DNA of 64,000 bases, from assembly GCA_015179025.1 (NCBI GenBank), contig WHUX01000185.1, forward strand, positions 39,698-103,697. The letters are read 5' to 3'. Shown here one piece after another: positions 11,300-56,569 of this stretch. The stretch is from Terfezia claveryi. Taxonomy: Eukaryota; Ascomycota; Pezizomycetes; Pezizales; Pezizaceae. The notes under the pieces are model-generated. The model made no database searches and was not told where the DNA came from. It saw only the letters and a list, made by a program, of their open reading frames with translations. Numbering within the stretch: the stretch's first letter is position 1; every line of letters starts with the position of its first letter. Made by a program: the position numbers and the translations under genes.

Positions 11300-12540
11300 T
11301 ACTAAGGGGTGCTTAGGTTAATATAGCTTGTATCATATGCATTCTTATTATAATTCATCATCATCATCATGTCCAGGATTGGGTTTATCTAGTCAATCTT
11401 TGTAGTTTTGGTCACCTGGCCCTTTTAAATTTTGCAAATACCTACCAGAAATGAATATGCGTGATTATCTAATCTAGCTGCTGGTTTGAGCTTCAATACC
11501 TGGCTCCTGGCGTCATATTTTCTTTTTCTTTGCTCTGGAGGTTTCGAGATACCAACAGGGGTGAAATCGTGTTCGTGAAACAATGCACAAGACAAAGTTG
11601 GCCCTGGTAAACAATAAAAAATATTGAATCTAGGTCGATATTAATCTGGTTGCACAACCTCTCGTAGGGGGGTCGATATGTGGTTTAATGCACTCGTCGC
11701 TATGTGTAAAACTCCTTATCGTTCCGGTCGGCGGGAAGTATCTCCAGTTCCTCAAAGAAGCAGCAGTACCGTACCGTGTGAGAAGTCTGGTTGGTGTTGT
11801 GCCAACCAGAGTCCCGTGTGAGGTAAATTTTTTAAGTGCAACTAGACTCCATTTATAGTTATTCTCGTGTTATTTTTTCTGTCTAGTAACCCCGCAGCTA
11901 AACCTTATGCATTTACGTATATTATGTGTCCCTTTCAATCATCCACCTGTACCGCCGTTTCGCCCGATAAGCAATCAACAGCAAAGGAAAACAACTATCT
12001 AGCCTTCATTTTGGGCGTGGTCTCAAACCTCCGCCTCCACAGTCCCTCTTCCTCCTGCATTTTATTTATCCGACACCAGGTCCTTCCAGTCCTTCCAACA
12101 CAAGCGAGGTTGTGTCCTTTCTCTAGTCTGTCTTCTTTTTCGAATGCTACCCTAAGGCGAGGCCCCAACAAGTTCCCGCGCTACCGAACAGTATATTCGC
12201 ACCCCGAGAAATCCAGCTCAGGAAACAGTGCTAATGGCGCGAAACGCAAAACAATGGCAATCGATCGGACAATTGTGAAGGCATTCCCTGGATAAATAAA
12301 GCACAGTAGGTAATATTGACAGACAGGAAACAGGGTGAGGATATCGTCAATAATGCAAAATATCTTGGTGTGGAACTTGGCATTTGGTGCAAATATTAGA
12401 CAAGGCAAATTTTTTTTTTCAACTAGAAGCTCAGGAGAAGAGGTAACCCGCAATTGACAAAAGGGATTATTTTAAGAACGTTAGAGAGAGCAGAGGAGGT
12501 TGCAAGGCTCGACCCAGCGAAAGAACTTGGGCGATGAAGC
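11300..12540. other. Intergenic region downstream of the 12.5-kb gene
   Basis: An open frame of 142 codons (11867-12295, plus) has no domain, unusual composition and no clear start context, so it is not called a gene. The region also holds the micro-insertion at 11783-11813. Confidence 0.5.
11783..11813 (+). mobile_element. 31-bp TAGTCTGG-family micro-insertion
   Basis: A nearly palindromic 31-bp insert (AGTCTGGTTGG, then TGTTG, then TGCCAACCAGA) sits between exact 9-bp direct repeats CCGTGTGAG (11774-11782 and 11814-11822). It contains both a head-on and a reversed copy of the family core. Confidence 0.75.
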
Positions 12541-15432
12541 CTATGCCCTCTTGAAATTTCCATGTCTGTGCAGTCTACCTCTAGAAATGCCCCTCAATTG
12601 CTGTTCGCCGTCTGAATCCACATACTGCACAGCCAAACTCGCAAGAGCCTGTGAGCCTTTACCTCTACCAAGAGTATTCCTCTCGCCGAAAGCCTCATCG
12701 GGTCTGATGCAGCGCTTCTTCCGCTCTCTCCTCCGCGTACTGCTTGCGTAAGCGTTGAGCTGCGCGGCAAACAAATCATCGAATGCACGATCGCATGCAG
12801 ACTCTGGTCTGGGGGGTTGGGCTTCGAAGATTTCACCCTCTTCAAGATCCATGGGGGGTGCAAGATCCATGGGGGGTGCAAGATCCATGGGGGGTGCAAG
12901 ATCCATGGGGGGTGCAAGATCCATGGGGGGTGCAAGATCCATGGGGGGTGCAAGATCCATTTGGGGTGCAAGATCAAGGGGGGGGGCAATTTCCCCTTCT
13001 TCAAGGTCCTGAGGGAGATGTTGCCCTGCTGGATTCCCCGGGGAGTCCTCGCCAGTGACTAGATCAAAGGCTGCAACCAGGCAACCGTCGACTGCTGTAG
13101 GGATATGAAGGATCTCCCGAACCATGACTTCGAGTGAGGGGAGATTGATGGCGGGCCCGGGTTCTTGTTCTAGAACAATACTCTCAATTGAGGGAAACCC
13201 AAGGTGGGGCTCGAAGACCTGTTCGAAGATAATGGGGACCTCCGACGGGTGCATGATAGTGGGTTGTTCCGTATTCTTTGTGGGAAGGAGATTGCCCAGG
13301 GACCCCATTGCCCTTTGAACGGATGGCACGCTCCCAATGGTGTTAACCCACAATTGCCAGGCTTGCCAGGCTTGATCGGTGGAAAGTATGCCGATGTCAG
13401 ATCCATCATGTGCAACAGCCTCCTGTATTGGTGCTCCTGTATCATCACATGAGGCAACACTAACGAAATCAGTGAACGGCGGTTCCTCTAGTACCCAATT
13501 CAAGGAAGGGATCGGCTCTGAGAACAACATCTCTGTGTACGTCAGGCTAGTGGGAGAGGTACATTCAGCTTTGATTTCATGCACGTGGGTGTGTTCCTGC
13601 GGGTGAATGGTTTGGATAATTTCAGAGGCATCAAGTGGAGCAGGGGTTGTGGCGGGTGGGTTGTGGTTGTGAACTCTCAGGATGACCTTCTTGGTTTTCA
13701 CGTTCGTCCTCTTGCTAGTTTGGGCCTGTGAATGGGGCTGGGAATCTCCATCAGTTTGAGGAATTGCTTCGTCTCCAGGTTTGGCAACTGGCGTACAGCT
13801 ATCCAAGTTTCCAACGTCCAGCTCCAGGCTGGCGCTAGTGCTGGTCCGGCGTTTGCTATGTTTCTTCTTTGTTGGTTGTGTGTATCGAGAGTAGGCATAA
13901 CTGACGCCATCAATCCAGTACACATTATCGTTGTGGAAATCGGGGGAATGGAGCTTTGTAACTTCTTCCAAGCTCAAAGGAATATATTTGTCTTGGGCCG
14001 ATGCGGATATGATCAGAGCTGCCTCTGGCTTAGGAGTTGTGACCGAATATTGCGTCGGTGGAGAGTCCTGTGGTTGGGCAACGCTCATGTCACATGAGGC
14101 TCGAGACTTGTTCCAGGTATCTATAGCTACATCCATTCGAGTATTAGTGGCCTCTTCGCTAGAGCTAAGGCCTTCAACGTCTTGTCCCAGGCTGTCGTCA
14201 ACGGGATGTTTTGCTTCAGCCTCCATTAGGACCGGTGTGTACTCCCAGCCCTGTAAACCCATGGCCTGTTCGAATTGAACCCAGGTCCACTTTTCATCCC
14301 AGCAGCGTTTCATGAGTTCGTCATCGTTCAACAGAGGATAGCGAGCTTCCTCCTTTATATGACCAATGGATTTGAGAGCGGAACAGTCTGTAACAATGAC
14401 GCTAGGGGAGCCAAAACGAGGTGGTTCTTGCACTGAATTCTCCCACCTAGGCCCATGGGTGAGAATTTGAGATGCATTGGCAAGCTCCCATCCTTTCGCA
14501 TCTTCAGTGATATTCTCACTAGACAGGGATAAAGTGGTGTGTGCCATTTCCGGAGGGTAAGTTCGTTTACCACTATGAACTACCTTCATCTCCCGGTTTG
14601 GTGTCTCTAATGTGGTTGCTGAGCGAGACACATGTTGGGGGCTCATGTGAGGATTCTGGCTCGCTGACAGGCTTGAGAACTCCTTATCATCACCACGAAA
14701 GTAGGGATTAGAAATGACAGACTCAGGTCTAGTCACTTTAACACGAGTCCTTTCCTGAAACATCGTTAGTGAATGACTTAAGAGTGAGGTAGTTCTTGTT
14801 CATACCTTCCTGTGCTTTCTGTCTCCTGGGTAGGTTGATGGGAGGATTGGATCTTTCCATATGGTAGCAGTTGGGGCTCTGGGTGCTCTGATGTCTGCCT
14901 CCTTATCGTTCTTCTCCAGGTCTGCTAGAGAAACGGTTGGAGTGTTTCCTGGAAGGGTTGTACAGGATGGGCCGGAGTAAGGTCGGAGAATGGAATACTT
15001 CATGCCCTTGCGAAGCGTACGCCCGACACTCGCAGTATGCTGCGGCGTGTCGGAGTCAAAGGCTGAAGCCTTCTGTGAGTGCATGGGAGTGATAGGGTAG
15101 ACAGGGGTACTCTGGTCCTTGCTGGCATCTGCCGGATTTCCTGTGGACTGTATTCGACTCCTTAGGGACGACTGGGAGGTCTGCACACTTTGTGATGGGC
15201 GTAAGGTGGATCGTTGTGGGTTCGCATGGGTCATGCCCCCTGTCGCACCCCTCTGCCCTGATTTGCGTAGCCCCACTTCGTCAGTGGTGAAAGTCTCGGT
15301 GGTGACGGTAGGTGCAGCCTTAGAGCCCCTCTCCACTTCTCCCCTGGCAGACACTGGAGCGGCTGTCCCGTCTCCTATATTTTTTGTTTCCGGTTCTCTA
15401 GGATCACAGCAATTAGTGTGCCATACATCCAT
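12541..15432 (-). CDS. Unknown disordered protein with APPMDL repeats (two exons)
   Basis: Exon 1 is 15432-14806 and exon 2 is 14754-12541. The 51-nt intron (14755-14805) starts GTATGA, ends TTTCAG and holds the branch site CACTAAC; it joins codons in phase 0. The product would be about 946 residues. It is rich in S, T, P, E and D and has no membrane segment or signal peptide. It includes a tryptophan-containing stretch (WDEKWTWVQFEQAMGLQGWE) and, near residues 800-845, six APPMDL and one APQMDL hexapeptide between two EEGEI motifs. The basic C-terminus has RRRERKKR. I do not recognise the family. The frame stays open for 57 codons upstream of this ATG without another ATG, so an earlier exon is possible. 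Confidence 0.6.
12851..12976 (-). repeat. 18-bp coding minisatellite
   Basis: Seven tandem copies of AGATCCATGGGGGGTGCA, the last with one changed triplet region. Each encodes one hexapeptide APPMDL or APQMDL. The units are nearly identical in DNA, so expansion is recent or kept even by slippage. Confidence 0.9.
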
Positions 15433-16031
15433 TTCAAGGGATAGAAGCTCTCTACCTGCAGTCCCAGGGGGTAAGACCTGAGCCTGCTCTCCCTCCGGCT
15501 CCAGACATGTCCGACTGAGGATAATGCGTATGTAAGAGCCTTTGTTGGAGTTCTTAGTTAACAGGTGGAGAAGGAGAGTAAAAGTGGGGTAGGTGACAGG
15601 AGATTAAGTGTCAGCCGAGAATTCCACTGGATGGGAATTGCGACAACTAGGATCAAGAATTGCCGGTAACAGAAGGTGGCTACGTCTAGCCCATATTACC
15701 AATCGTGGGATTACCCCAGATTAGGGATTACCAGTAGCCGCTGTTGCAGAAACACAAGAACAAGCCCCCGCAATCAACTGAATTGTATGTGCTCAACTGG
15801 TCGTCTTAACTGGCAGTGGTTCATCGGCAGTATGCCGCCCACTCCGAGGAGTTGTTTATGAAGGAATATGGCTCGATTCACCTTGTAATTATATGGCATC
15901 CTACTCTGGAAAGCCCTTAGTTAGAAAGCCCGTTCTCCGTCCGCGTAGCACATGTTTTTTTTTTTTTTTGCAACTCAGTGCTCGTAGTAAACAGAGACAT
16001 ATACCACGTATCACATTCACATCGAGCGGCC
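15433..16031. other. Upstream region of the 12.5-15.4-kb gene
   Basis: Presumed promoter side of the minus-strand gene. A T-run lies at about 15957-15970. No TATA box stands out. Confidence 0.4.
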
Positions 16032-16171
16032 TAGGCCTGGGCACGAGCCGAAAGCTCGAGCCCGACCGGGAAAAGCCCGAGCCAGCTCGTAGAAAGGCTC
16101 AAGCCCCAAAATATATTGTAAAAGCTCGAGCCTCCTTGGAAAATGATGAGCCGGCTCGAGGCCAGGCCTAG
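16032..16171. mobile_element. Short hAT-type MITE
   Basis: 140 bp with ends TAGGCCTGGGCACGAGC and its near reverse complement GCTCGAGGCCAGGCCTA. The inside repeats GCTCGAG/CGAGCC motifs. The flanks GAGCGGCC and TAGCGGCT share six of eight bases, a worn 8-bp duplication typical of hAT insertions. The same ends bound the element at 32170-32603. Confidence 0.7.
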
Positions 16172-17177
16172 TAGCGGCTCGATTCGAGCCTCTACCATTG
16201 CCCCTTGAATACAAGATTCCCAGAACCCCCTCTAATGCCATATGCAATGGGGCAGTATGGCTCACTGACATAATCTCATTCTGCGTTGGAGGAGCCGTAG
16301 CGGAGTGTTTCTGCAACTCTTTCATCTTGAGTCTGGAACTCCAAAGTTGACCAGCAGCTCTCCAACCTGTCAGCAGTCGTGGGGCCAGCTAAGGAGCCAC
16401 GTCTATCTGCCTCTTCACTGAACTGAAACCTATGGCTATGGAAGGAGTACCTGCATCCGCTTATTTAATTGGTACACCTCCTATACACATTGATAAGTTG
16501 CCTTTCTTCTCATCGGGCTCGGCCACAAGCATCTCATCGATGGAGCTCACGCCTCGAAAACGGTTCCCTGCTCGTCTCTCCTATTAGAAATGTTGGTCTG
16601 TAAGTATCATCGCTCCTTTAACGACCATACGTCGTGTTCAGCATTGGTTTGTGTTGTTGCAAAGCCAATCCGGTTTGCCCATTCTCAATATGTCTAGGTG
16701 GCCGGGGAGGTGATTGTAGGCTTTCTTTGGGCTGCGAACCTGTTGAATGGAGAGGGGAACCAGGTGGGGAACTAGGTAGGGCTATGTAGGACACTGTTTT
16801 TTCCTAAGGAAGAATCGTACTTCAGTCAGTGCCCGCAATACGATTAGGTCAAGGGAGTTGAGTATAGTTCCTACCTGTAACAGAATCTCGGACACGGATT
16901 GACTGTCAATGGGAATTCACGAAAGTTGTCAAATCAGAAATATTACGAGAAGATTGTAGAAAATAATGAGAGGGGAAGCGTCATTGCCATGGTAGAACTC
17001 GCACTCAGTGGGGAGGAGCAGCGCGTCGTTGGAGGTTTGTTGACGTCAACAAGGAAAACAAAACACGGATACCAATACTTACTTGTTAGGCTAGTGCCTC
17101 TTGACGGTTGCACGTGCATCCTTGCAGGAAAGCACTAACAGTTTTCCAATACATGCCGTACTTCAGGTATGTAGTTA
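16172..17177. other. Intergenic, no gene recognised
   Basis: A short plus frame at 16899-17138 has no support beyond being open. Nothing else seen. Confidence 0.5.
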
Positions 17178-17815
17178 CAGTGGTGTCGCGTTATAAGAAA
17201 CGATGCCCCGGCCCCGTCAAAATTTGTATGGGAAAATAATTAACTCTCGTATAGGCAGGTTTCTTAAATCTTTGTTTAATAACAAATAGAGTTTCTTATA
17301 ACGAAGTTGTGGTTAGTCCGCATTGTGCAAATTGTTCCTCCACCAGTTTACGTGAAATTAGTCTGGTTGGCACAACAGCCCCGCCTAAACGTGAAATAAA
17401 GTAAATAAAGTCTCATTCTACTTGCCGAAGTTGCCTCTAGGAGCGAGAGAATATTTGGCCCACCATATGCTACACCTCGACCATGACTATCAAGAAAATG
17501 TCCCAGATGTACCTGTTATTTCCTGTAAATAGAAGACCTTGAACTTCTTCGTCTCTTTCGTCTTCAAAATCCTCATATCAATCTACCGAAAGGCGAGCAG
17601 CTGGAGGGTCTCTTATATCTAGAACAGCGGGATATTGAGGGTCTAAAAGGTATTGCTCGCAGGACACTTCATCAGACAGCCATTACCGGGTTTTTCACCC
17701 CTCACTCGGACATTTCCTAAATTTTGTGTATACAGTATATCTCGTAATAAGAAACCTCACTTTATAAGAAACCCAGTGGTGGTCCCGAACAGTTTCTTAT
17801 AACGTGACGCCACTG
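17178..17815. mobile_element. pogo/Fot1-derived MITE, copy A
   Basis: 638 bp with ends CAGTGGTGTCGCGTTATAAG and CTTATAACGTGACGCCACTG, flanked by TA (17176-17177, 17816-17817). The subterminal TTTCTTATAACG motif recurs inside. The sequence at 17490-17720 matches the reversed copy at 55798-56499 and keeps traces of the C-terminus of a Fot1/pogo transposase, so the family is an internally deleted transposon. It carries a later micro-insertion at 17359-17388. Confidence 0.85.
17359..17388 (+). mobile_element. 30-bp TAGTCTGG-family micro-insertion with empty site
   Basis: TAGTCTGGTTGGCACAACAG followed by CCCCGCCTAA, between exact 9-bp repeats ACGTGAAAT (17350-17358 and 17389-17397). The other copy of the surrounding MITE (55798-56499, reversed) reads straight through this point at about 56275-56282 with one target copy and no insert. 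This shows directly that the 30 bp plus one 9-mer were added. Confidence 0.88.
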
Positions 17816-26722: not shown

Positions 26723-26918
26723 GCTTAACCAGAGGGATGAAGTAAGAGTCTTTCTAGTACCTCTCTGGAGGGTCTGGGCACGAGACTATTCTAGTACCGC
26801 CACACTGAAGACAAGAACAAGACGAGGCTATTATATAGAACAAAACCGCCTGGGTGCCAAGCCCGACATATTCCCTTTTCGAGCAATTCACAATTCTAAA
26901 CGCGTCAGTACATACATA

Positions 26919-27863: not shown

Positions 27864-27968
27864 TTTTTTTTTCTTATATAGATACTCATTACTCCTATTC
27901 TGTCCCAGTGAGGAGCCACCCGGAAAGTGCCAACCAGACTAACCCGGCAACGCAAAGTAAATATTTAA
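27864..27968 (-). mobile_element. 105-bp LINE 3'-end insertion
   Basis: Poly(T), then GATACTCATTACTCCTATTC and GAGGAGCCACCCGGAA of the LINE 3' end on the reverse strand. It is flanked by ATGTGGAAC (27855-27863 and 27969-27977). It contains a later micro-insertion at 27927-27941, which lengthened it. Confidence 0.8.
27927..27941 (-). mobile_element. 15-bp TAGTCTGG-family micro-insertion
   Basis: GTGCCAACCAGACTA between ACCCGGAAA (27918-27926) and ACCCGGCAA (27942-27950), one mismatch. It sits in the LINE 3' end, where other LINE copies in this window lack it. Confidence 0.8.
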
Positions 27969-33767: not shown

Positions 33768-34170
33768 AGAAGGTCAACAAGCAGTGGCTTGGAATGCGTA
33801 AATACGTAGAGGTAGGCAGCACAGTGGCTGAAAGTGGGGAGAGTATCTTAAAGTAAAAGGCCGAAGGGCAGTATCAGTTTTGTCGACAGTGCTGTCGGTT
33901 GAGCAGTTGGAAGGGATAGAGTTAGGGGAAGAAGATGAAGAAGATGGAGAAAGCGCAGTTGCTTTAAAAGAGTATGCCAAGCGGCTCTGGCAGTTTGTGG
34001 GTTGTCGTATGATACCGACGTGACTGTGGAAATAGTCTCGTGCCTACTGTGGAAAGGGATAGGTGGTGAACAAGGTGGGCAGAGGTAGGTAGAGTAGTGC
34101 CTCAATCTGGCTATAGAAGCTTGAAGTAAGTGAAAGGCCAGAAGGCAGTTTGTTTGAGAGTAGGTATTGC

Positions 34171-34330
34171 TAGTCTGGTGGATTAGTCTGGTTGGCACAA
34201 GCCCCCCGCCAAAACAATAAAGCATGTTTTCGGTCACAATTTGTCAAAGAAAAGAGCACAGCGCTATTTTGGCTGCCAAACTAGCGGAAAACTACTTACT
34301 TAGTCTGGTTGGCACAAGCCCCTCGTCGAG
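34171..34330 (+). repeat. Cluster of longer TAGTCTGG-family copies
   Basis: TAGTCTGGT at 34171, then TAGTCTGGTTGGCACAAGCC at 34184 and again at 34301. Between the last two lies a segment (34213-34290, GAGCACAGCGCTATTTTGGC) that recurs reversed at 46632-46705. These copies have no 9-bp repeats on both sides and may be ends of a larger parent element. Confidence 0.55.
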
Positions 34331-34365
34331 GTACCTAGTCTCGATCCGTAGAGGGCGGCAAACCA

Positions 34366-34376
34366 CAACCAGACTA
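34366..34376 (-). mobile_element. 11-bp TAGTCTGG-family micro-insertion
   Basis: CAACCAGACTA between exact repeats GGCAAACCA (34357-34365 and 34377-34385). Confidence 0.75.
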
Positions 34377-34469
34377 GGCAAACCACCTCAAATATGATAG
34401 TACCACCCAATTGGGAAGGTTAGACTTCGAGTGACGTCCTTAGGTTAGATTTAGTTGTAGGAGCGGGGA

Positions 34470-34479
34470 TAGTCTGGTT
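34470..34479 (+). mobile_element. 10-bp TAGTCTGG-family micro-insertion
   Basis: TAGTCTGGTT between exact repeats GAGCGGGGA (34461-34469 and 34480-34488). Confidence 0.75.
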
Positions 34480-34621
34480 GAGCGGGGAAGAACCTCTCCG
34501 AATCCTATAAGGGAATGAACAAAGGATAACCGTTCCATCAAAATAGCGTCATGATGTCGGTTAGCCTAGTTGATTATGCAAATTGTTGGGCTATTTAGCG
34601 ACAAAAGACTATGTAAATAGG

Positions 34622-34632
34622 TAGTCTGGTTG
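34622..34632 (+). mobile_element. 11-bp TAGTCTGG-family micro-insertion
   Basis: TAGTCTGGTTG between exact repeats GTAAATAGG (34613-34621 and 34633-34641). Confidence 0.75.
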
Positions 34633-34750
34633 GTAAATAGGTAGTTTCAACGTCATATTCGTCACTTATGCCATCACTAGTTCTATACTTGTCACTACCT
34701 ATGTATGTAAGATGGGAGCTTCCAGCACATAGAGCATATATTCGCATATC

Positions 34751-39590: not shown

Positions 39591-39906
39591 TATTTCTTAT
39601 TTTTTTATAGTCTGGTTGGCACAACACCCTCCTGAGAATCTTTTTATTTGTCTAGCCTATCCATATCCAGCTAGATTGCCTATAAAACACTAATGCAAGT
39701 GTAGACAGGCTCACCACCTAAGTGAACTTACGAGAGGCTAGTGCTAGCCAGACTGAACCAGACCAAGCTAAACTTATAAGTTTATAAGTTCTACAAGTTC
39801 TCGAGCACAGCAATTGTAAGGAGCAATTTTCCACTCTGACAGTCAATAACTCTGACAGTTAATACAAAACTCGAACAACTTGCAACTTCTATAATCGTGG
39901 GCCAAT

Positions 39907-42900
39907 ATGCGACGAAGAGGAACTTTGCAACCAATCCCTCCTGCAAAGTGCTTTGCAGGTAACTCACCGAGAGAACATCCTTCATTACTACTTCTTAGTT
40001 GATCTCAGCTAACACCAGTTTCGTACAGGACCCGGACGTTGGGCTACAGGCCCTGGTATTCATGAACATGCCCTACAGGAGGCTCCCTATGATGAATTGA
40101 ACATGAACACGTCTTCTTTCGGGGTTATTAATGGTCATCTCGTGGACCTCTGTCCTCGAACAGATCTCGCCTCGGCTGCGGAAGAAGAGTTTGAGGAGAT
40201 GTTGGAAGAGGCAGTCAGCAATCTAAGCACTTCAGACTCTCGGACCCCACGAATGAACGTCTTTGGTAATTCACTAGAAGAAGAAGAGGAGGAAGATGAC
40301 ACCCCTCCGTTGACAGGCCCAGATACGACAGGAACTTCAACGACAGCAAATCCCGATTCTCCAGCGTCAAATGATGGCATAGTCCCATCTCCTGCTTATA
40401 CTGCCAAGCTTGGTGTGACTGCTGAGGACACGGACTTGGATCCAAAATTCATCGACACATCAAAGATCGCAGAAGAGGCCAAGGGATCAGGACAAGTCAA
40501 CTCGTTTATCGTTGCTTTAGGCATATTCGTGACTTCGCTGGACATAAGCACAAGCCAATATTCCGCCCTGGTAGATCTCTTCAATTATGTTATGTTAGAA
40601 CCTTCTGTCGTCAAGCAGTTCCCGAGATCTCTGTCAACCCTCAAGAAGTACATGAGGTCGGTTCTTCCTTTACAGACCATAAAGGCTTACAGCTTCCGTC
40701 CGGACACCGACCAGCTCCCTCCGCAAATGCAGACCCCAGCCAATGCATACTATTTTGACATCAAGGAGATTGCATCTATTTGGCTCTCAGATAGAACAAT
40801 TTCTAAGAACCTCTATACTGGCCTGGGCGAATTTGTTGATGAGTTTCAAGAGTACTGGCACGCAGATGCATGGTTAGAGAGCATACAAACCTCCTCCGGT
40901 GATTTTGCACGACTTCCAAATGGCATACATGTCATACCTTCAGACTGTATGTGGTATACCAACCCCGAATATCCCCAATATGGTGAGATGCTGGGACGTG
41001 TCTATGGTGTTGGCTATGACAGACGATCAAAGGGAACCGGCCAACTCTCATTGGCCATTAATCCCCTACTCTTGTATAAACAGCTCTCACCACAGTGGAA
41101 AGAAATATTCCGAAAGCAGCGAGCAAAGATTCTTCAAAACACAACATGCGAGCACTATACAAAGACCACATTCTTGCAGGATAAGCGAGAGGTGTCCCTT
41201 ATGGAGCATATGACAGAGATTATCCTACTGGATAATATCATTCGTCATGAATCTGTAATCTTTCTAGATTATGATAGTCTCTCGGCCTGCAACCAAATAC
41301 TTCCCCAAGATTCTTCACCATTACAAGAAGAACCCTCCGACCCATCAATACGACGCGTCATCTCTCCCAAATTCTTTGTTGCATGCATTATGTATACAAT
41401 GGAAACCGCCACAAGCACACAGAATGGACTTCGGTCCGTGGAGAAAAGACACCGATTGGTAGCAGAACTCGAATTACTGCATTATGGACGCGATGAACTT
41501 CTAACCGCCAACCAGTCCTTTTATTCTTTACTATATACCACCTTTTTGGATGGCTTTGGTCTATACCGCAACTCATATCATTCTCTAGCTGGAGTCTATA
41601 TTACTCCATCTAATCTGCCTTTACATTTGCGGGAAAAGATTCAAAACATCTTTGTTCTAATGTTAGGTCCCTTTGGAAGTAACGAAACTGACATATCAGC
41701 TGCTCTCCAGCCTGACTGTACAAGAATGGACAAAGGCACCACTATCAGACTGTTGGATGGTTCTGGCACCAAATTTGTACGGATGTTTTGTATCGCACAT
41801 CATGGAGATATGCCGCAACAAAACAAACTCGCCGGAATCAAATCTCATAAAGCTGACCATGGCTGCCGAGGCTGCCTCATATCAAAAGACGAATTTGGTA
41901 ACCTCGGGATTGACACTCAGGCTCAAGGGCGCTACCTCTTCCCTATGTATCAACTGAGGAAGGATGTCACCCAAATCAAAACCAAGGTTGGTCGAGACCA
42001 ATTCTTGCAGAAGGTTGGACTTAATTCCGATGGTCCCCTTATGGCTTTGTGTCATCCATGTCTGGACCCACTCAGGTCAACCCCCCATGACCCATTGCAT
42101 GCGGAATGCCGCATTTGCAAATACTTCCAGGGGTGCCTTGTTGAGGCTTTTAGAACCACTGGGGAAATCGCATATCGACTGGCCTGGGAGAAAATTGAGC
42201 TTCCATACCAATGGGGGTGCCCCCAAAATCCGATATCTCATAAAGGCTCTATGAACTTTAGTGAAAATGCCCGAATTGCATGTCTCAACCCTTTCATACT
42301 GATGCGATTATTCAAACTCCCAGGAGATCACTTCCGACCAAGTGTCGAAAGAGATCTAGCTTCACTTCTGACAGGAACGCCCCCACCTAATAAAACTCCT
42401 CGCCAGCGAGTTTATGATAACTTTATTTTTGCAGCCTATAAACTTGCACTTGCTGTTTCTTTAACATTTAAGCCAAAGATTACAGCAGAAGAGAGAGCCA
42501 TGGTCACTCAAACTGTTTTACAGGCACGTACCGCATTCCAATAGGTTGTGAAAGGCCTTCAATCCTCAGCCAAACTCAAAAATAAGTGGAAAGTCCCGAA
42601 TGTGCACATTCCATTACACTATCATGAAAACATACGGACATATGGGACTACTCGGAACTTGGCTTGCTTCATGGGGGAGCAGAAACACAAGTACTTCAAA
42701 CAGCATGCACCACATACCAACTCCAAGGAGAATGACTTCCAGCTCCTCCAGGCTGTTAACCTCTCACAAACGCTTCGTTATACAATTGATGGCTTGTACA
42801 AGGATCACCCTGTTTACAGTACTATCACTGATACTGTGAATCAAATTATGGAAGCTTGTCCATGAATCAAACATACCATCACTCCGCAACCTGTAGCTCC

Positions 42901-48990: not shown

Positions 48991-49040
48991 AGAAGTTCTG
49001 TGGAGCAGTTCGTAGGATGTGTCCTTATGGCTGGCTGGGG

Positions 49041-49055
49041 GCTAGGTAGTCTGGT
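49041..49055 (+). mobile_element. 15-bp TAGTCTGG-family micro-insertion
   Basis: GCTAGGTAGTCTGGT between exact repeats TGGCTGGGG (49032-49040 and 49056-49064). The repeats are G-rich, so chance is somewhat more likely here than at other sites. Confidence 0.6.
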
Positions 49056-49524
49056 TGGCTGGGGCGTGCATGACAGTGGGGTTACCACACCTGGACTATA
49101 TAGGTGCACGCTGAAAGCCTAAGCCCAGTCAGTTTGCGCACTTGTGTTTGGCGGCTTCATCACTTGCACTGAGAACTCCAACTTTAAGATTTTAATACTA
49201 TTAGCAAAACATATAAACTAACGATAAGGTGCTCTCAAATTATATTTTGCTTGATTTCCTTAGATGCGGTCCGATGCTACCCCAATCATACTCCCCTCAT
49301 ATCTCCCGCCAAACTACCTCATCCTACCCCAGACCCCGTGGGTTATACCCCCTATTACCCATGCCATTTCATTTGCTCCCTTGTTCCAAAGATAAATTCC
49401 CTCCCTTGGGCATCTTTGCCTATGGCACGCCCGTCCCATTCGTATCGGGAGACCTTAATGCCTCCCCAGACCTCAGGCTCGTCTCGCTGCCTCTTTTCCC
49501 CTCTAGTCGCTTGAAACAGTGACC

Positions 49525-51303
49525 CTAGCTCGGGGGCAGGTCCTGGAGTTGGCTCTTTAACGCCGCGCCCATATACATGTCCTCCATTGGCCCCCCACGC
49601 TTGGGAAGCTCGCAATGTCCGATACCGAAAGGATCTTGTGGCGCTGTGTTATCCACGAGTGGGCTGTTTGCCTGAGTAGATTCCCGTCCACGAATTGACC
49701 AATGTGCGCTGGGTGTCTCATCTTCATATGAATAATGCTCCAGAGGCCGCATGTGCTCTGGGTAGTAGCGTAGTCTGAAAAGTGGTATATCCTGCTTATA
49801 TTGCGTTTTTGCATGGCTGACTGGCGATCCAGTACGTTCAGCATTGACTGTAGTGGCAATTTGGGACCTGCGACCAGTGGTGATTTGGGGCATGAAAGTT
49901 CCAAACATTGGTCCCCGTTTGGTATTTGATTCTCTCTCATGGTGACGGATATCTTCGGCTTTGGGGCCGCTACGTTGTGGATGCTCGTTTTCGCTATGGA
50001 TGTTTTCTCCATGTGACATTTTCTCTTTATAACCTCCACCATAGCGCCTTTCGTTGTCTTTTGGCTCAACGTTCTTTTTCTCAGAAGTATACTCCCCAGC
50101 ATTGTAGTGATGCCCTCCATACTGTTTATCTGGCTGACTGACCTCGTACTGCTTTCTTGTGTACACCTCTTGCACATCGTGCGTCTGCTCATAGTGATAG
50201 TGTTTGGCTCCGTACCGGTAGTACTTTCCTTCATAATTTGGTTGATAAGGTTTCCTTTCTTCGTAGTACTTGCCTTCGTAATGCCTTCGCTGGTACATTC
50301 TCTCTCCATCGTCCTTTCCTTCGTACTGCGTCTCATGGTGTCTCTGCTCGGGCCTCGTTCTATTATAGTACTGGTCATCGTATTGAATTCCACCACGTCT
50401 ATTGTCGTGAGATTCCTGATGTTGATCACTTTTCTGAATGGTGTGGGCACGCCACCCACGCTCTTGGTCGTTGATGTGAGATACCCCCGGATAATTCGAA
50501 ACGTGGGCTTGATGAGACGAAATCGTTGCTTCTTCATCCCTCAAATTGACATTCTTTATATTGTATTCTCCGACTCTCTGCTGCAGTGTCTCATGTTGGA
50601 GTGTATCATTGAGAAAAGGTGCAGCTGCGGGTTGCTGGTTGTATGCGCCTCTCTGGTGATGTAGGTAGGTGGCATTGCTATTCTTTTGACTCTCAACTTG
50701 GGGATCGCGGAATACATATTCCTCTCCTTGCCGATGGTCCTGCCTGCCTGCATTATCTCGACCTGGATTCTGGACGGTGTGATGGGGGGGTTGGTTTTCC
50801 TGGCGCCCGTTATGGTGGTGAAGAGGAGCAGTCTGATAAGTCATTTTTATGGGTTGGCAGGAATTATATGGCTCATAGCGCTTTTGTTCTGCAACTTCGC
50901 GAACAGCTGGTGCTGGTGCTTCTTCGTATTTTGCGCGGTCCCCACATGGAGGTCGCTTTTGCTGACCCTCACTGTCGTGGTGAGATTGTGTATGATATCC
51001 AGATGGGTCTTTGTTGGTCTTGTTTGTTTTGGTAGCCTCTGCCCCAGTAGCCGGTCGTGTGAGACGGCTATGAACCCACTGGCAGGGGCTGATTTCCTCG
51101 ACAGACGACTCTCGAGAAAAGGGCAATGATGGTTGCTCCTGTTTTACGGTGTGCGCTACTACAACATTGACAACAGGGACATGTAGTGGATCATTGGTAG
51201 CAATGCCCTTGGGTTTGCGCTCAGACTCAGCAATTAATGAATGTGCTTCTAAGGGCCAATCTTTTAGTCTGGCCGAACCGGGTAGACCCCGTGTGTCCGG
51301 CAT
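49525..51303 (-). CDS. Unknown hydrophilic protein with YEGKYY repeats
   Basis: 592 codons from ATG 51303 (MPDTRGLPGSARLKDWPLEA). The frame is open 11 codons further up without ATG. It is very rich in H, Q, N, E, Y and R and has no hydrophobic segment. Near residues 320-375 short tyrosine-rich units recur (HETQYEGKDDGERM, HYEGKYYEERKPYQPNYEGK). The C-terminal part has better-defined sequence (IPLFRLRYYPEHMRPLEHYS). Long frames on the opposite strand are shadows. The family is not recognised and intrinsic disorder is likely. An overlapping frame upstream (MKQGQPINAMRERPAQTNKP) may be part of a first exon, but no junction is convincing. Confidence 0.5.
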   Translation of the reverse strand: MPDTRGLPGSARLKDWPLEAHSLIAESERKPKGIATNDPLHVPVVNVVVAHTVKQEQPSLPFSRESSVEEISPCQWVHSRLTRPATGAEATKTNKTNKDPSGYHTQSHHDSEGQQKRPPCGDRAKYEEAPAPAVREVAEQKRYEPYNSCQPIKMTYQTAPLHHHNGRQENQPPHHTVQNPGRDNAGRQDHRQGEEYVFRDPQVESQKNSNATYLHHQRGAYNQQPAAAPFLNDTLQHETLQQRVGEYNIKNVNLRDEEATISSHQAHVSNYPGVSHINDQERGWRAHTIQKSDQHQESHDNRRGGIQYDDQYYNRTRPEQRHHETQYEGKDDGERMYQRRHYEGKYYEERKPYQPNYEGKYYRYGAKHYHYEQTHDVQEVYTRKQYEVSQPDKQYGGHHYNAGEYTSEKKNVEPKDNERRYGGGYKEKMSHGENIHSENEHPQRSGPKAEDIRHHERESNTKRGPMFGTFMPQITTGRRSQIATTVNAERTGSPVSHAKTQYKQDIPLFRLRYYPEHMRPLEHYSYEDETPSAHWSIRGRESTQANSPLVDNTAPQDPFGIGHCELPKRGGPMEDMYMGAALKSQLQDLPPS

Positions 51304-52425
51304 TTTACCGCTACCTTCGGCACCGGCTGTCCCCACTGTGTTGGTGGTTTGTTGGTCTGAGCTGGTCGCTCGCGCATAGCATTGATTGGCTGTCCTTGCT
51401 TCATTACGCAGATATTCCGGCTACGAATTAGCTGAAGTTGTCCGGCAACAGCAACAGAACTGTAGAGTAATAATGATCTGAACGTTTCCTGGCGCAAATT
51501 GAGCTTATGTTACAAATGACTTTTTATAGAAACGTGTTTGGAGTGTTAATCCATTCGTCGGACTATTCCTACCAGAAGTTGCTCAGAAAGAATGACGACC
51601 AAGTACTTTCTTACTATAAATTGTTTACGGCAATTCCTAGGAATGGTTGGCTTGGTGATCGAGATAGCGTCGACCAGGAGGACTGGAAATGTATGACTGC
51701 AGAGGATTGGAACGAAAGAAGATATTGACACGAAGGCCTGAGTAGAATCAGCCAGTGTTAGCTGTGGCATTCAGAGATGTCAAACTATGGCAACCACACT
51801 AGCCGTAGCCGATGACTGCCGATGACAGTTTCGTCGAGACTTACAAAGAGCAGCCTCGGGACAAATTTATACGATCTCCAAGTACGGTAGAGCGAGAGCC
51901 AGGCGGGCAACCGCCGAGATGGGGCTTCAACCTCGTCCGTCAGGCTGGCTAACAGTGAAACTGATTTGTAGACCACGACGCAATGTTATGAACGCAAAGG
52001 AGCTTGATTTTCGTTACTTTGAATCTTTTGCATAGAGCGTGGCGCGGGGAGACTTACTAGGTACTTCGATGTGGAGAGGAATTAATTGCACTACTCCTTG
52101 CCAGAGGCTGTGGAAGAATGATGGCAGACAATGATTGGGGAGAGAATAGGTAGATATACGGAGAGGATGTTTTGACTGGTTCCATCAACAACTCTCATTA
52201 GTCATTCTATTGAGCAAGGTGTGTTCAGTCTCCCTGTTATCCTCACCATACCCTCACCCCAGGCCCCCTTTCCATCACCTTCATCAGCCGAACCCCTTCT
52301 GCGTCAAGAATTTTCATTTCGTGACCCACCAGCACATCCCTCAGTCAACGGGAAATTCCCGATTCTTCAAGTCCAGAGTCTACCAAAAACGATTACAGTA
52401 CACGATACGATGTCTATGCAAAAGT

Positions 52426-52440
52426 GTGCCAACCAGACTA
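52426..52440 (-). mobile_element. 15-bp TAGTCTGG-family micro-insertion
   Basis: GTGCCAACCAGACTA between ATGCAAAAGT (52416-52425) and ATGCAAAGT (52441-52449), one extra A on the left. Confidence 0.7.
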
Positions 52441-52797
52441 ATGCAAAGTGCATCACGAAGACACGTCGAAGAAGAGCTAGGCTCAAAAGCTGACAAGTAT
52501 GCTAGTAATTTCGAAACGATGACGGAGAGAGTCTTCGGGTGGTCAGCGCCTCACTTCAGAGCTCCGTGGAAATGGTTAGCCTGAATCTAGCGCCCATAGA
52601 AACCTACATGATGATCAACCCTCTGGCGAATCCCTCTGTAATTCCCCTCTCGACGCACTGATGGCGATAGATACATGGGCGGAGAAGTTTGTTTTGCGGT
52701 TGGTTGCATTGGCCACCTGCTTCCGAGACTAGTGCCCCCTCACCCGTTGATAAGCCCCTTACCCCACTTGTCACATAACCGGGCCATGTCTCCTTGG

Positions 52798-52880
52798 TGC
52801 AGCTGGATTGATCTCGATCAGTTCACAGCTATTGCGGGTATTGGTCGCAGGTTCGACTCCTGGCATAAACACCTCGTTCA
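52798..52880 (+). other. tRNA-like pol III box pair
   Basis: A-box-like TGGTGCAGCTGGATTGATC (52796) and B-box GGTTCGACTCC (52851) with a four-pair T stem (CAGG/CCTG). No acceptor stem is found. Together with the T-rich stretch after 52908 this could be a SINE head, but the T-rich part has its own target repeats. Confidence 0.3.
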
Positions 52881-52907
52881 AGAAATGGAGGTTGACGACA
52901 GGAGCCC

Positions 52908-52940
52908 CCTTTTTTATTTTTTTTCTTTTCTTTTTAAATA
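52908..52940 (-). mobile_element. 33-bp LINE tail insertion
   Basis: On the minus strand TATTTAAAAAGAAAAG and further A-rich bases, the very end of the LINE (its 3' end is AGTATTTAAAA). Flanked by exact 11-bp repeats GACAGGAGCCC (52897-52907 and 52941-52951). Confidence 0.75.
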
Positions 52941-53611
52941 GACAGGAGCCCGATCCATGTATGTAGCCGTACTTCCAAGAGTCGTATCAGCCCGCCGAAA
53001 AAACTTGCTCCAGGCGAATTTTTTTTTGCTCCTCAGACAGACGTGGTAGGTTGTCTGTACGTAATATTATTTTTATTGTTTCATATTTGTTTGTCTCTCA
53101 TGCATAAAATTCCCGTTATGCCTACAGTTTCTATCGCTCGATGTTTTCCGCCCTGGCTTGTGCCGGCCCAAATCGAATACATTCCTCCTCAGAAAGTCCT
53201 CTCGGTTATTATACCATATAGGTAGAAACGTAAGCTCATGGTATCTAGGTCATGCCACTTGTGATGAGAATTTATTGACTATGGCAGACGATCGTATATT
53301 ACGACTTGTACTTATTCTATTCTAAACTCTGGGTCGGGGAAAGAAGCAGTAAAGGGGAGCAGTAAAGGGGATACAACCAGGGAAAACAACAGCCACCCAA
53401 ACACGAAACGACGACGAAGAAATTAAGACCCTCTAATGTTTAATATATCCTCCTGCATCGTCCCAATTCATCGTCCCAATTGTGTGTCGTGTCATCCCCA
53501 CCCCAATATATTCATCTTTGTTGTCCCCGAAGGACCTGACCTAGGTTGTCAAACTCTCACGACAACTATGCCCCCCACCCAACGCCCTGTGTATTCTAAG
53601 GCTGCCTGCCT

Positions 53612-54229
53612 GCAATTTTATCCGACTCCCAGGCAGCAATACAGGCAGTCCACAATATGAGTTCGGGGTCCCCACCCAGATCTGGCATCGAAAAAGGTAT
53701 CAAATCCCTCATCACGTCTAATCAGCACAGGGACCTTCAGATATCATGGGTCAGAGGCCACCTAGGCATCCCAGGCAACGAGAAGGCAGACCGATCAGCA
53801 AGCCTACAGTCACACCTAGGCGAATTCGTAGGCAAAAAACGCACGATAACGGAAGGAGGACTACGTGCAACCTCCAAAGCCAGGCGGAAAGAATCAAGGA
53901 CCAGAACAGGCTTTGGGTTGAGGAGAGTGGAGTGGAATCGACAGGCTCTGTCAGCTTACACGTGGCTACGCACCAATAGAGGTCCACAACGGAGCTGGTT
54001 ACACCATATCGGCAAATCGGAATCAGCAGAGTGCCCATGCGGCCACCACACCGAAACTGGAGAGCACATAGTCTTCAGTTGCCCTCGCTTCAACCGAATT
54101 CGCGGGGGCCTACTAGGGGACAGGGGGAGCTGGGAAGAGCTAGACGAGCCAGTTTGGAGAGAGGAGGGCGAGGAGAGATACGAAGCTACCGAGGCCTTTT
54201 TCGGGCTACTATATGGAGAGCTAGTTTAA
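53612..54229 (+). pseudogene. LINE ORF2 C-terminus: RNase H and zinc knuckle
   Basis: One open frame, about 205 codons, without a start because the element is truncated. RNase H motifs are ILSDSQAAIQAV at the edge and ISWVRGHLGIPGNEKADRSA, followed by KKRTITEGGLRA. Then come SAYTWLRTNRGPQRSWLHHI and the CCHC knuckle CPCGHHTETGEHIVFSCPRF, and the end TEAFFGLLYGELV. In an intact LINE this region removes RNA from the hybrid and binds nucleic acid. The frame has no stop or shift, so the copy is young. Confidence 0.88.
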
Positions 54230-54560
54230 AAAGTGTCGCCGGATATCACGAGTTCCATTTGTTTTAAAGTCTATAAGATATCATTAGTTCCATTTGTTTT
54301 AATTTTCTTCTCTTGTTTAGTCCTTCTAGTTCTGCGGTTTTATTGGAGTCGAGGCTCAGTCAGGCTCCCGAGTCATCGGCTAGTCCGTTAATGACAGCAG
54401 GGTGCCTCGCTCCTATACATGTATTTATTTCTCTTGCGCAGGGGTTGGCAGATTAACTTGCCTCCCCCTTGAATCCACCGGGCTTCCAGGTGGCTCCTCA
54501 TAGCTCCTCGTTGGGGCTGCATAGGAGTACCCAGTATTTAAAAAAAAAAAAAAAAAAAAA
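53612..54560 (+). mobile_element. Tad-like LINE, 5'-truncated, recent
   Basis: 949 bp. It starts within the RNase H and ends in a poly(A) run (54540-54562). Exact 14-bp target repeats AAGGCTGCCTGCCT lie at 53598-53611 and 54561-54574 (the last As are shared). The roughly 300-bp 3' untranslated part (GAGGCTCAGTCAGGCTCCCG to GCATAGGAGTACCCAGTATT) is the sequence found in all the shorter copies in this window. Confidence 0.92.
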
Positions 54561-54574
54561 AAGGCTGCCTGCCT

Positions 54575-55550
54575 TCAGTACCTTGTGGCCAACGTTTCGT
54601 TGTCTCCCACTTACGCACCTCATGCGTCCGTCAGGCCGTACCCACCGTTGACTCGTTGGCCATTTTCTGCCCTTACAGCCCCAGGGTTCGTAAACAGGGC
54701 GTCAGATTGTCCTTGCGTATGGTCAGTATTGTCTCGTATAGCTCTAGGACCTGTAGTAGGGACTTCCCTTAGACGTTGAAGTTTTTTTTTTTTTTTTTTT
54801 TTCCAGTCTATTACGCCTTAGTCAGTCCACATCTTTGAAGATCTATCGCGGGTATAAGACTTTTAAAAATCTTTTTTAAAATAAAACGGCTTAATCACCC
54901 TGCGGCGGAGACATTGAGTATTGCCAGTGGTGACTAATCAGGGCCCAGGACGGATGATAACGCTCTTGTGGTAGTCTCATGCCAAGACCCTCCTGCCAAG
55001 GGGTCCTCTCACTACTTGTGGTCGCCGCTGCACTGAGTCCCGTGTTGGAAACAAAGCTGATCTGGGTGGTTTTGCTTGCGGTCTCGGTGGGGATTGTTGG
55101 TGGTGGGATTGCTGACATTGGTGATACAGTACATCACAGGGTTATGCAAAATGCAACAGCCCTCATGGAATCCCTGCACCACCCTTGTTGGTGGGGTGAT
55201 GTGTGGGGGGGAAATTCAACAACGCAGATGCCCGGTGGATAGAGTTACGTCCTATACACCTATAGAATCGTCAACAGCTATCGGAATGACGAAATTCAAT
55301 GTCGCAAAGCGGCTGCAGAAGTTGGTGGAAGAGGGAAAGAAGGAAAATCGGATCCAACGTGCCCTGTACAGAATTTAAGGCAGGCAAGCATAAGTCAAGC
55401 ATAAGTCAATACGCGCATCTGCAGCGGCTTTTGGACTCGATCATAGTACTAAACACTCATTACTCCTATTCGGTCCATGGGGAGATCATGGTACCCTGAA
55501 TCGTCGCTTAAAAGGTTTGTACTCTCTCAATTCCTAAAAGACAAAGATAT
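54575..55550. other. Intergenic, no gene recognised
   Basis: A T-run of about 20 lies at 54782-54801 without visible target repeats. A faint LINE 3' end (ACTCATTACTCCTATTCGGT) is at about 55457. Confidence 0.5.
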
Positions 55551-55795
55551 ATGCTCATTGGAAATAGGGCCAATATCCTGAAAATCAGCGCATGCACAAC
55601 AACCTTTGACACCGTAGCAGAAAAGACCTCTGCACGCTGGATCCTCCGCCTGGAGGAATTTTGTATCCCACCTCGTATAGCCTATGTGAAAGAAGCTATT
55701 GTGCTTGTGAAGCATGGGAAAGCTATACGAAGGAAATTGGGGAAAACTAACGTTACCCGATTCTTTAACCGATATCCAGAGGTTGTGACTAGGAT
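55551..55795 (+). pseudogene. Fot1/pogo transposase N-terminal relic, split by a MITE
   Basis: The frame ARWILRLEEFCIPPRIAYVK then KAIRRKLGKTNVTRFFNRYP and EVVTRI matches the DNA-binding start of Fot1-type transposases (two helix-turn-helix parts with GFPPR, VGK-W-F-R-PEL-TR). It breaks off at the TA target of the MITE 55798-56499. On the far side FDLQRMKASD (56510-56537) fits the next motif (YDYQRA--EDP), so the MITE entered this gene copy. A micro-insertion follows at 56540. Confidence 0.7.
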
Positions 55796-55797
55796 TA

Positions 55798-56499
55798 CAG
55801 TGGTGTCGCGTTATAAGAAACTGCTCGGGACCACCACAGAGTTTCTTATAATACGAGGTTTCTTAAAACGAGATATATACATAAAAATGAGGAAATGTCC
55901 GAGGAGGGGGTAAAATACCCGGTAATCGCTGTCTGATGCTGCGTCCGGCGAGCCATACCCTCTATCCCGCTTTTCTCGATATGTATAACGGATCCTCCAG
56001 CTCTGTAAATTGACATGAGGATTTTGAAAAGACGAAAGAGACGAAGAAGATCAAGGGCTTCTAGTGCAGCTTTACAGGAAATAACAAGGACATCTGGAAT
56101 ATTGCGCGTCAGAATCAGATTCATAAATAGGAGCAGGCCCAGAGGTATCCTGGCGAGTTTGAACTGGCTTGGATGACATAGCTAGTATGACTTAGTAGGA
56201 CAACAATCGAATTGAAACACAATTTATCTGAGTAGAGCCAACTTTGGCAAGTTCAATGAGACTTTATTTACTTGATTTCACTGTAAACTGGTGGAGAAAC
56301 AATTTGCACAATGCGGGGTAATCGTGCGGCTCATGCGACATGGAACTTCGTTATAAGAAACTCTATGTGTTGCTAAGCAAAGCCTTAAGAAACTTGCCTA
56401 TAACGAGAGTTTCTTATTTTCCCATACAAATTTTGACGGGACCGGGGCACAGTTTCTTATAACGCGAGGTTTCTTGTTTCTTATAACGCGACACCACTG
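55798..56499 (-). mobile_element. pogo/Fot1-derived MITE, copy B
   Basis: 702 bp, ends CAGTGGTGTCGCGTTATAAG perfect at both sides, TA at 55796-55797 and 56500-56501. Relative to copy A (17178-17815) it is reversed and lacks the 30-bp micro-insertion. Its minus strand retains KAALEALDLLRLFRLFK then TQHQTAITGYFTPSSD, like the end of a Fot1/pogo transposase. Confidence 0.85.
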
Positions 56500-56539
56500 T
56501 AGCACACATTTGATCTTCAGCGAATGAAAGCAAGTGATC

Positions 56540-56554
56540 GTGCCAACCAAACTA
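56540..56554 (-). mobile_element. 15-bp TAGTCTGG-family micro-insertion
   Basis: GTGCCAACCAAACTA between CAAGTGATC (56531-56539) and CAAGTTATC (56555-56563), one mismatch. It lies within the Fot1 relic. Confidence 0.78.
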
Positions 56555-56569
56555 CAAGTTATCCTAGGG

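Follow-up and report, generated by a model that had tools for sequence, protein, structure and literature searches.

The nuclear genome of the fungus Terfezia claveryi carries a dispersed family of tiny inserts that are best explained as ultra-short, DNA-transposon-type insertions; we estimate that about 3,000 of them are recognizable. About 4 in 10 of the core copies tested have a constant TAGTCT... end and a 9-bp target duplication whose sequence varies from site to site, and in most duplication-bearing copies the second end varies and is not a transposon end. The phenomenon is solid; its mechanism is unproven. The 72.6-Mb genome contains the core motif, TAGTCTGGTT, 7,569 times, compared with 161 times for a backward control, and a 15-mer of the family occurs 2,885 times, compared with 0 for its control. 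These genome-wide figures are pattern counts, and the duplication statistics are based on about 0.3 Mb of sampled DNA. In the window, by which we mean the whole 64-kb stretch of DNA that was analyzed, the core with at most one mismatch is found 26 times versus 4.5 expected. The original prediction, a family of inserts that duplicate 9 bp of target and fall into discrete size classes, describes something real, and the family extends genome-wide. A scan with controls for an excess of flanking 9-mers had been set beforehand as the refuting test, and the excess is present on the sampled stretches. The second refuting result named in advance was a strain comparison without empty sites; here, empty sites were found among paralogs.

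Nine sites in the window had been listed as members, and eight of them are as described. On rereading, the repeats are exact at 11783, 17359, 34366, 34470, and 34622, contain a single mismatch at 27927 and at 56540, and differ by a one-base indel at 52426 (the latter two sites were judged by eye). The ninth, 49041-49055 (49032 to 49064, no strand assigned), was rejected as a member: its exact repeat, tggctgggg, is G-rich and does not abut the TAG end. Four further copies were absent from the list, and two of these (26761-26788 and 34033-34046) belong to a sister core, TAGTCTCGTGCC. The remaining exact cores of the window have no clear flanking repeat. The copies and one paralogous stretch are as follows.

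11633-11679, plus strand: insert 11642-11670 (29 bp) with the variant start TAATCTGG, between exact repeats ggtcgatat; new.
11774-11822, plus strand: insert 11783-11813 (31 bp) with related ends AAGTCTGGTTGG...CCAACCAGAGTC, between exact repeats ccgtgtgag.
17350-17397, plus strand: one-ended insert 17359-17388 (30 bp), between exact repeats acgtgaaat; its empty paralog lies at 56233-56444.
26752-26797, minus strand: one-ended insert 26761-26788 (28 bp) of the sister core TAGTCTCGTGCC, between exact repeats ttctagtac; new.
27918-27950, minus strand: one-ended insert 27927-27941 (15 bp), TAGTCTGGTTGGCAC, between 9-bp repeats with 1 mismatch.
34024-34055, plus strand: insert 34033-34046 (14 bp), TAGTCTCGTGCCTA, between exact repeats ctgtggaaa; new.
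34357-34385, minus strand: one-ended insert 34366-34376 (11 bp), TAGTCTGGTTG, between exact repeats.
34461-34488, plus strand: one-ended insert 34470-34479 (10 bp), TAGTCTGGTT, between exact repeats gagcgggga; an insert-free paralog lies in stretch L009.
34613-34641, plus strand: one-ended insert 34622-34632 (11 bp), TAGTCTGGTTG, between exact repeats gtaaatagg.
39599-39646, plus strand: one-ended insert 39608-39637 (30 bp), between 9-bp repeats with 1 mismatch; new.
52417-52450, minus strand: insert 52426-52440 (15 bp), between repeats atgcaaaagt/atgcaaagt, which differ by one indel (by eye).
56531-56563, minus strand: insert 56540-56554 (15 bp) with the core variant TAGTTTGGTT, between repeats with 1 mismatch (by eye).
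56233-56444, minus strand: paralogous stretch, 82% identical, that spans the 17359 site without the insert or the second 9-mer.

At 50 of 115 core sites, the 9 bases before TAG recur 8 to 60 bp farther on with at most one mismatch, whereas 200 flank swaps averaged 1.1 and never exceeded 4. When the window was pooled with a further 200 kb, a 9-bp repeat (at most one mismatch) at a distance of 8 to 40 bp accompanied 34 of 68 cores versus 0.42 expected, an expectation obtained by swapping flanks among sites. Exact runs that stop at TAG, taken at their longest, are most often 9 bases (34 of 161 core sites); a run of 8 is found at 10 of these sites, a run of 10 at 10, and a run of 11 or 12 at 3. 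Runs of 10 to 12 make up about the share by which chance would extend a 9-bp duplication. The duplicated targets, taken from 81 exact sites, have no consensus. When we started from 9-mer repeats and ignored the core, TAGTC, with 25 of 218 repeat pairs, was the only insert end to be strongly enriched; AGTCT followed with 9 and is the same end shifted by one. The duplication thus has the fixed length expected of MITEs, with a peak at exactly 9 bp. The MULE family makes duplications of 8 to 11 bp, usually 9, and a duplication of this kind without consensus is what we see here. A stagger of 9 bp would fit Mutator without proving it. LINEs and SINEs would give duplications of variable length and a 3′ tail, whereas here the length peaks at 9 and the listed inserts have no tail.

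These counts depend on how the DNA was sampled. Stretches L001 to L010 were placed on listed core copies and L011 to L020 at fixed places. The 115 sites derive from 100 listed places, all on C1, with the 8 beyond C1:943000 left out. Also left out were the 11 of the 100 places that lie in L021 to L040, stretches picked largely for facing pairs; since these 11 include the two-ended L021, two-ended copies are slightly undercounted among the 115, in which each two-ended locus counts twice. Stretches L089 to L128 were chosen as facing pairs. For subfamily C, 40 places were taken in order from a list of 100, skipping those already sampled and C24:515540.

Three inserts are absent from paralogous sites. 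A search against the sampled DNA matched 5 of 66 inserts elsewhere across the join. We inspected three, and all three sites were empty, giving insert-free paralogs of 74 to 82% identity for 3 of the 66; the matches of the other two (L025 and L029) fall in further insert-bearing stretches.

Most recognized copies are one-ended: the TAG end is constant, and the opposite end varies. The variable end falls into two size classes, 6 to 16 and 23 to 38 bp, with none at 17 to 22. The 130 copies scored as one-ended include a few that are two-ended or nested on inspection, for example both strands of L098, L102, and L003:8483. In the longer class, the variable end often coincides with the tip of a small hairpin or falls within a few bases beyond it; the hairpin is CCTCC-NNN-GGAGG, with other letters in sister subfamilies. 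Terminal stems of at least 4 bp are present in 17 of 52 long one-ended copies, versus a mean of 4.6 and a maximum of 10 when ends were swapped between subfamilies. The hairpin excess in a first mixed set was modest, with 10 of 42 versus 3 to 4 for swapped ends and 6 with the end shifted by one base. Subfamily C copies, chosen by their first 25 bases, carry the duplication (at most one mismatch) in 27 of 40 cases; all 27 are one-ended, and 3 of them are copies of one repeat. Their sizes are 24 to 33 bp, with one of 37; 10 of the 27 end at 32 to 33 and none at 34 to 36. Their loop letters occur in both orientations (ACA in 11, TGT in 4, other or cut short in 12), as expected if stubs derive from either foldback arm. 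Stubs can be stable once made, since the same one is kept unchanged in three diverged copies of one repeat.

A minority class has TAG at both ends and consists of near-palindromes of 23 to 54 bp. MITE-like terminal inverted repeats at both ends are present in 4 of 59 distinct duplication-bearing copies from stretches not chosen for facing pairs, as counted by a script that misses a few base-shifted ones (L098 and L102 are examples elsewhere). Exact duplications flank 17 of 40 sampled facing pairs. In the window and L001 to L040, facing TAGTCT pairs with matching 9-mers number 2 of 556 versus 0.2 expected, and both are 30 to 34 bp. By our own reading, two-ended copies are composed of stub and stub, for example 15 + 10 or 28 + 19. 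Of the foldback layout, a near-palindrome with long inverted arms, the two-ended copies show the near-palindromic form at 23 to 54 bp; one-ended copies hold one arm, and intact long-arm parents are nearly absent by exact pattern. True micro-elements, one of two origins first suggested for the inserts, do exist in the form of these two-ended copies with exact duplications, but they are the minority and the rest are one-ended.

A MULE whose ends begin with TAGTCTGG had been suggested as the source, and we looked for it. The genome has 21 MULE domain matches, 19 of which fall in the 18 stretches of about 3 kb that we examined (those on C21 and C81 were left out). Both ends could be delimited in only two of the 18, L041 and L042; these MULEs have exact 9-bp duplications, and both end in CGGACTGACTC..., not TAGTCTGG. 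The exact core is missing from 17 of the 18 stretches. It is present in L046, which at first looked like a promising parent, but there it sits inside a long arm of repeats.

We propose, with a probability of somewhat less than one-half (about 0.45), that foldback micro-elements are inserted by a transposase that cuts with a 9-bp stagger and that usually a single arm is left. A DDE transposase, most likely of the MULE type, would act on very short foldback (hairpin-forming) DNA and join its one open end to the target, completing the 9-bp staggered cut. Host repair would then open or trim the hairpin near its tip and join the resulting stub to the opposite, filled-in end of the target. One arm would usually be kept; two arms would sometimes be kept, giving short palindromes. 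We suggest tentatively that the usual product may be a one-ended insert of 10 to 33 bp with a complete 9-bp duplication, so that one real end is needed and the other is the hairpin tip.

Several observations count against this proposal. Terminal hairpins are found in only about a third of the long one-ended copies. In subfamily C, 13 of 40 copies lack a duplication within one mismatch, and L162 among these looks two-ended. No exact duplication is shared by 23 of the 40 facing pairs. Three palindromes (30, 40, and 50 bp) have no loop, and by our own reading the two-ended L113 mixes subfamilies, as L106 may. Exact-pattern searches of the genome found an intact subfamily C foldback with a 3-nt loop at 0 places and, with loops of 4 to 34 nt, 5 matches per strand at 3 loci, versus 232 copies of the C arm; subfamily B has 1 intact foldback. 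The 18 MULE stretches, two of them delimited, yielded no transposase linked to TAGTCTGG ends. To our knowledge, one-ended products are not the normal outcome of any characterized eukaryotic transposase.

A serious but less likely rival to one-ended insertion, and one of the two origins first suggested, is that larger MULE-like or foldback elements with these ends had inserted with 9-bp duplications and later left by cut-and-paste, and that imperfect repair kept 6 to 38 bp of one end, sometimes of both, between the two duplications. According to the accessible text of its report, the Aedes MULE Muta1 sometimes left as many as 13 bp of its terminus behind in yeast, at donors without duplications; with duplications, excision was precise in about 90% of cases, so that most excisions would be invisible (PMC5225508). 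The stub/stub makeup of two-ended copies, as we read it, fits joined remnants. No two-ended element above 54 bp with a duplication was found in the sampled stretches, which are mostly 10 kb, such that longer ones could escape, and the window and L001 to L040 (mostly stretches of up to 10 kb) hold no larger parents with the same ends and duplications. Past about 36 bp, the stubs have no interior sequence in common. Two copies joined into a 64-nt query matched many copies but revealed no longer common unit among the 40 of 126 candidates that were scored. Bare tandem duplications of 9 bp show no enrichment (there are 11 with period 9, compared with 15 with period 8 and 6 with period 10), though precise excision would leave none. 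Thousands of remnants without a parent would be a strained ratio, and the occurrence of loops in either orientation suggests a foldback measuring only tens of base pairs.

Retroposition is improbable. In that scenario, target breaks would have received copies of an RNA about 33 nt long that begins with a hairpin at the 5′ side and finishes 3′ in ...GUGCCAACCAGACUA (also given as ...AACCAGACUA), with 5′ truncation producing the variable end and snap-back copying the palindromes. The constant end and the upper limit near 33 for the variable end in subfamily C would fit, as would the variable-end hairpin in part of the copies. Target-primed events, however, give duplications of variable length, whereas here the length is sharply peaked at 9 bp; moreover, some copies have transposon ends on both sides, there is no tail, and no source gene was seen. 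We give equally little credence to a nuclease or transposase that makes 9-bp staggered breaks, into which repair copies or captures loose transposon-end fragments. Joined stubs of unequal length, once of different subfamilies (L113, our own reading), are in its favor, but the arms belong to the same subfamily in 8 of the 10 two-ended copies with both arms readable (our own reading), and random-ended loose fragments would not give TAGTC as the one strongly enriched terminus in the core-free search. Chance repeats around a common motif, of which 49041 is a case and with which the 65 of 115 core sites lacking a repeat within one mismatch agree, are rejected by the swap controls (50 of 115 versus 1.1) and the core-free search, and insert-free paralogs exist.

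Known systems resemble these inserts in part. Tn3-type one-ended transposition likewise has one fixed transposon end and one variable end, but it is bacterial and kilobase-sized, whereas the inserts here measure tens of base pairs and lie in a fungus. Yeast GC clusters are short, hairpin-forming, dispersed mobile elements of mitochondrial DNA whose mechanism is unclear. We know of no fixed 9-bp duplication in organelle hairpin elements. The term one-ended transposition appears in PMC3189936. Sponge mitochondrial RHE are also short, hairpin-forming, and dispersed, with an unclear mechanism (PMC2800124), but like the GC clusters they are mitochondrial. MULEs and MULE MITEs share an 8- to 9-bp duplication without sequence preference, as described for Muta1 (PMC5225508) and with exact 9-bp examples at the two MULEs delimited here; unlike them, the inserts are 6 to 54 bp and mostly one-ended, and their ends differ from those of the two delimited MULEs. 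Tm1 Mutator/Foldback elements of root-knot nematodes have foldback-type ends and mostly 9-bp duplications without a target consensus, but they measure 0.17 to 2.5 kb and have a terminal repeat on each side, and one member is putatively autonomous (PMC3169594). Stowaway/mariner excision footprints keep both duplications along with a small terminal fragment of the element; those duplications are 2 bp and the footprints short (PMC4561436), in contrast to 9 bp, inserts of up to 38 bp, and no parent found here. The literature that we searched, mostly without subscription papers, contained no report of such inserts, and the accessible text of a MITE review has no passage giving the smallest known size (PMC12595863).

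Repeat annotation easily overlooks inserts of this size, which would pass as random indels. If one-ended insertion is indeed the usual product, we know of no smaller mobile DNA units, and these are present in thousands of copies. As a normal outcome, it would bear on the minimal contacts required by a transposase, on the source of short insertion mutations, and on foldback processing. The family amounts to a large natural collection of repaired transposition junctions in which the repair step may be read.

To measure target duplication, we sought the 9 bases preceding the terminal TAG of each core (TAGTCTGGTT) again downstream, allowing at most one mismatch, and used flanks swapped among sites as the control. 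In the window and twenty 10-kb stretches (264 kb), the 9-bp repeat is present 8-40 bp downstream at 34 of 68 core sites, against 0.42 with swapping. With forty stretches of contig C1 added, 50 of 115 core sites have a repeat within 8-60 bp, 31 of them exact; the swap control gives 1.1 expected, with a maximum of 4 in 200. The target duplication is 9 bp long, since over 161 core sites the commonest length of the longest exact run up to TAG is 9 (34 sites, with 10 sites each at lengths 8 and 10). No target consensus was found among 81 exact-duplication cases. In a core-free search seeded with 9-mer repeats, TAGTC alone stood out as a strongly enriched end of the insert (25 of 218 pairs).

We counted the core in the whole genome (794 contigs, 72.6 Mb). 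It occurs 7,569 times, compared with 161 for a backward control; TAGTCTGGTTGGCAC occurs 2,885 times (control, 0) and the sister core TAGTCTCGTGCC 423 times (control, 4). By extrapolation from the sampled duplication share, TAGTCTGGTT alone would account for some 3,000 recognisable inserts. The family is spread unevenly, since seven fixed 10-kb stretches on contigs C4-C10 (L014-L020) hold no exact core where the genome mean predicts about seven. A neighbour lies within 300 bp at 30 of 70 micro-insert sites, compared with 13 expected, half of the stretches having been placed on known copies. Clusters occur at window 34024-34641 and in stretches L025, L028, L029, L152, L153, and L174, and some clustered inserts seem to have re-inserted into an existing 9-bp duplication. 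None of 14 exact cores in the window falls inside an ORF of at least 150 aa; such ORFs make up 24% of it (P about 0.02). Terfezia boudieri and Kalaharituber pfeilii are desert truffles of the Pezizaceae. The ORF at 12541-14763 (740 aa) is 78% identical to a T. boudieri protein over its full length, and for that at 40097-42544 (815 aa) the best named match, of 47% and spanning 48% of the query, is from K. pfeilii, with two unnamed proteins scoring higher. The most probable host is therefore a relative. Retroelement remains at 60685-61434 (-) and 53657-54229 (+) include an integrase core accompanied by a zinc-binding domain, as well as a weak match to RNase H that does not reach Pfam's cut-off. 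Tandem repeats with a unit of roughly 34 bp (cgaaaacacatgaattcatacatatagagagac) fill about 62175-63900 at the right end.

The inserts represent real insertion events. We compared 66 of them with the sampled DNA, and for three a paralogous stretch (74-82% identity) aligns over the join without the insert and without the second 9-mer:

17359, 30-bp insert: empty in window 56233-56444
34470, 10-bp insert: empty in sampled stretch L009
L012:9842, 11-bp sister-core insert: empty in L016 and two window stretches

In another repeat, an identical 27-bp stub persists unaltered in three diverged copies.

Of the 342 relaxed-core sites in the stretches read, 152 are distinct inserts flanked by a duplication (no more than one mismatch). 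Our script classes 130 as one-ended: 48 at 6-16 bp, none at 17-22, 75 at 23-38, and 7 longer, although on inspection a few of the 130 and most of the 7 look two-ended or nested. The other 22, mostly sampled as facing pairs of cores, are two-ended; in stretches selected without regard to facing pairs, the share is 4 of 59. The two-ended copies measure 23-54 bp and are nearly palindromic. An exact duplication is common to both sides in 17 of 40 sampled facing pairs; L021, L068, and L078 hold further two-ended copies with an exact duplication, and L002 one with a single mismatch. Genome-wide, cores face each other 0-30 bp apart at 178 places and 31-60 bp apart at 124 (control, 0 for both). Of eight places read in the wider class, only L091 (54 bp) has a duplication; the other seven look like neighbouring or nested inserts.

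The arm of subfamily C, TAGTCTGGTTGGCACAACACCCTCC, has 232 copies in the genome (control, 0); this subfamily was sampled at 40 places among the 100 matches listed, selected by the first 25 bases only. A duplication is present in 27 (19 exact), and all 27 are one-ended, 24-33 bp long with one of 37; as L152, L153, and L174 are copies of a single repeat, 25 are independent. Among the 13 without a detected duplication, L162 looks two-ended. Stub ends concentrate at 29 (5) and 32-33 (10), with none at 34-36, and five of six 33-bp stubs complete a CCTCC-NNN-GGAGG hairpin and then stop. The loop letters are ACA in 11 stubs and TGT in 4, and 12 have other letters or are cut before the loop is completed. 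Since both ACA and TGT occur, it is as if the stubs derive from either arm of a foldback. Other subfamilies have terminal hairpins with different letters. Across all subfamilies, 17 of 52 long one-ended copies end in a stem of at least 4 bp, where exchanging ends among subfamilies predicts 4.6; in an earlier set that had no subfamily C copies the count was 10 of 42, where swapping the ends yields 3-4 and displacing the end by one base yields 6. Complete foldbacks are nearly lacking in exact-pattern searches, which mutated foldbacks would escape: these searches returned no complete subfamily C foldback with a 3-nt loop, five matches per strand (3 loci) with 4-34-nt loops, and one complete subfamily B foldback.

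The fixed duplication length points to a 9-bp staggered cut by a dimeric DDE enzyme. MULEs make such cuts and occur in this genome, with 21 domain matches, 19 of which lie in the 18 stretches we read. Two stretches, L041 (contig C61) and L042 (C89), each contain a complete MULE whose ends are CGGACTGACTC and which is bounded by an exact 9-bp duplication; small palindromes follow the one in L041. Both ends were delimited in these 2 of 18 only, and among the 18 the exact core is found in L046 alone, within a long arm. There, together with L129 and L130 (C773:253169-260447), a MULE domain is flanked by very long inverted arms of short repeats, and both arms contain the TAGTCTGGTTGG core.

The main rival explanation is that larger elements were lost with imperfect repair, leaving stubs. 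In the yeast experiments described in PMC5225508, up to 13 bp of an end of the MULE Muta1 occasionally remains at donors without duplications. At donors with duplications, the same source gives precise excision in about 90%, so the missing excess of bare tandem 9-bp duplications here is compatible with such loss. However, stub length has a sharp upper limit, and no larger parent was found in the sampled DNA: of 556 facing TAGTCT pairs up to 20 kb apart in the window and L001-L040 (most stretches are at most 10 kb), a common duplication flanks only two, which are micro-elements of 30 and 34 bp. If a 33-nt RNA were retroposed, the truncation pattern would be accounted for, but the fixed 9 bp and the two-ended copies would not.

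A constant end combined with a precise opposite target border implies that the target cut was finished though only one transposon end or arm was retained. We favour a mechanism in which a very short foldback DNA would integrate, its hairpin would be opened or trimmed near the tip, and end joining would seal the insert to the target. We found no report of such micro-inserts in the literature searched. MITEs have two ends and a parent element, whereas most copies here lack the second end and no linked parent was found in the sampled DNA. Nevertheless, the phenomenon works like transposition.
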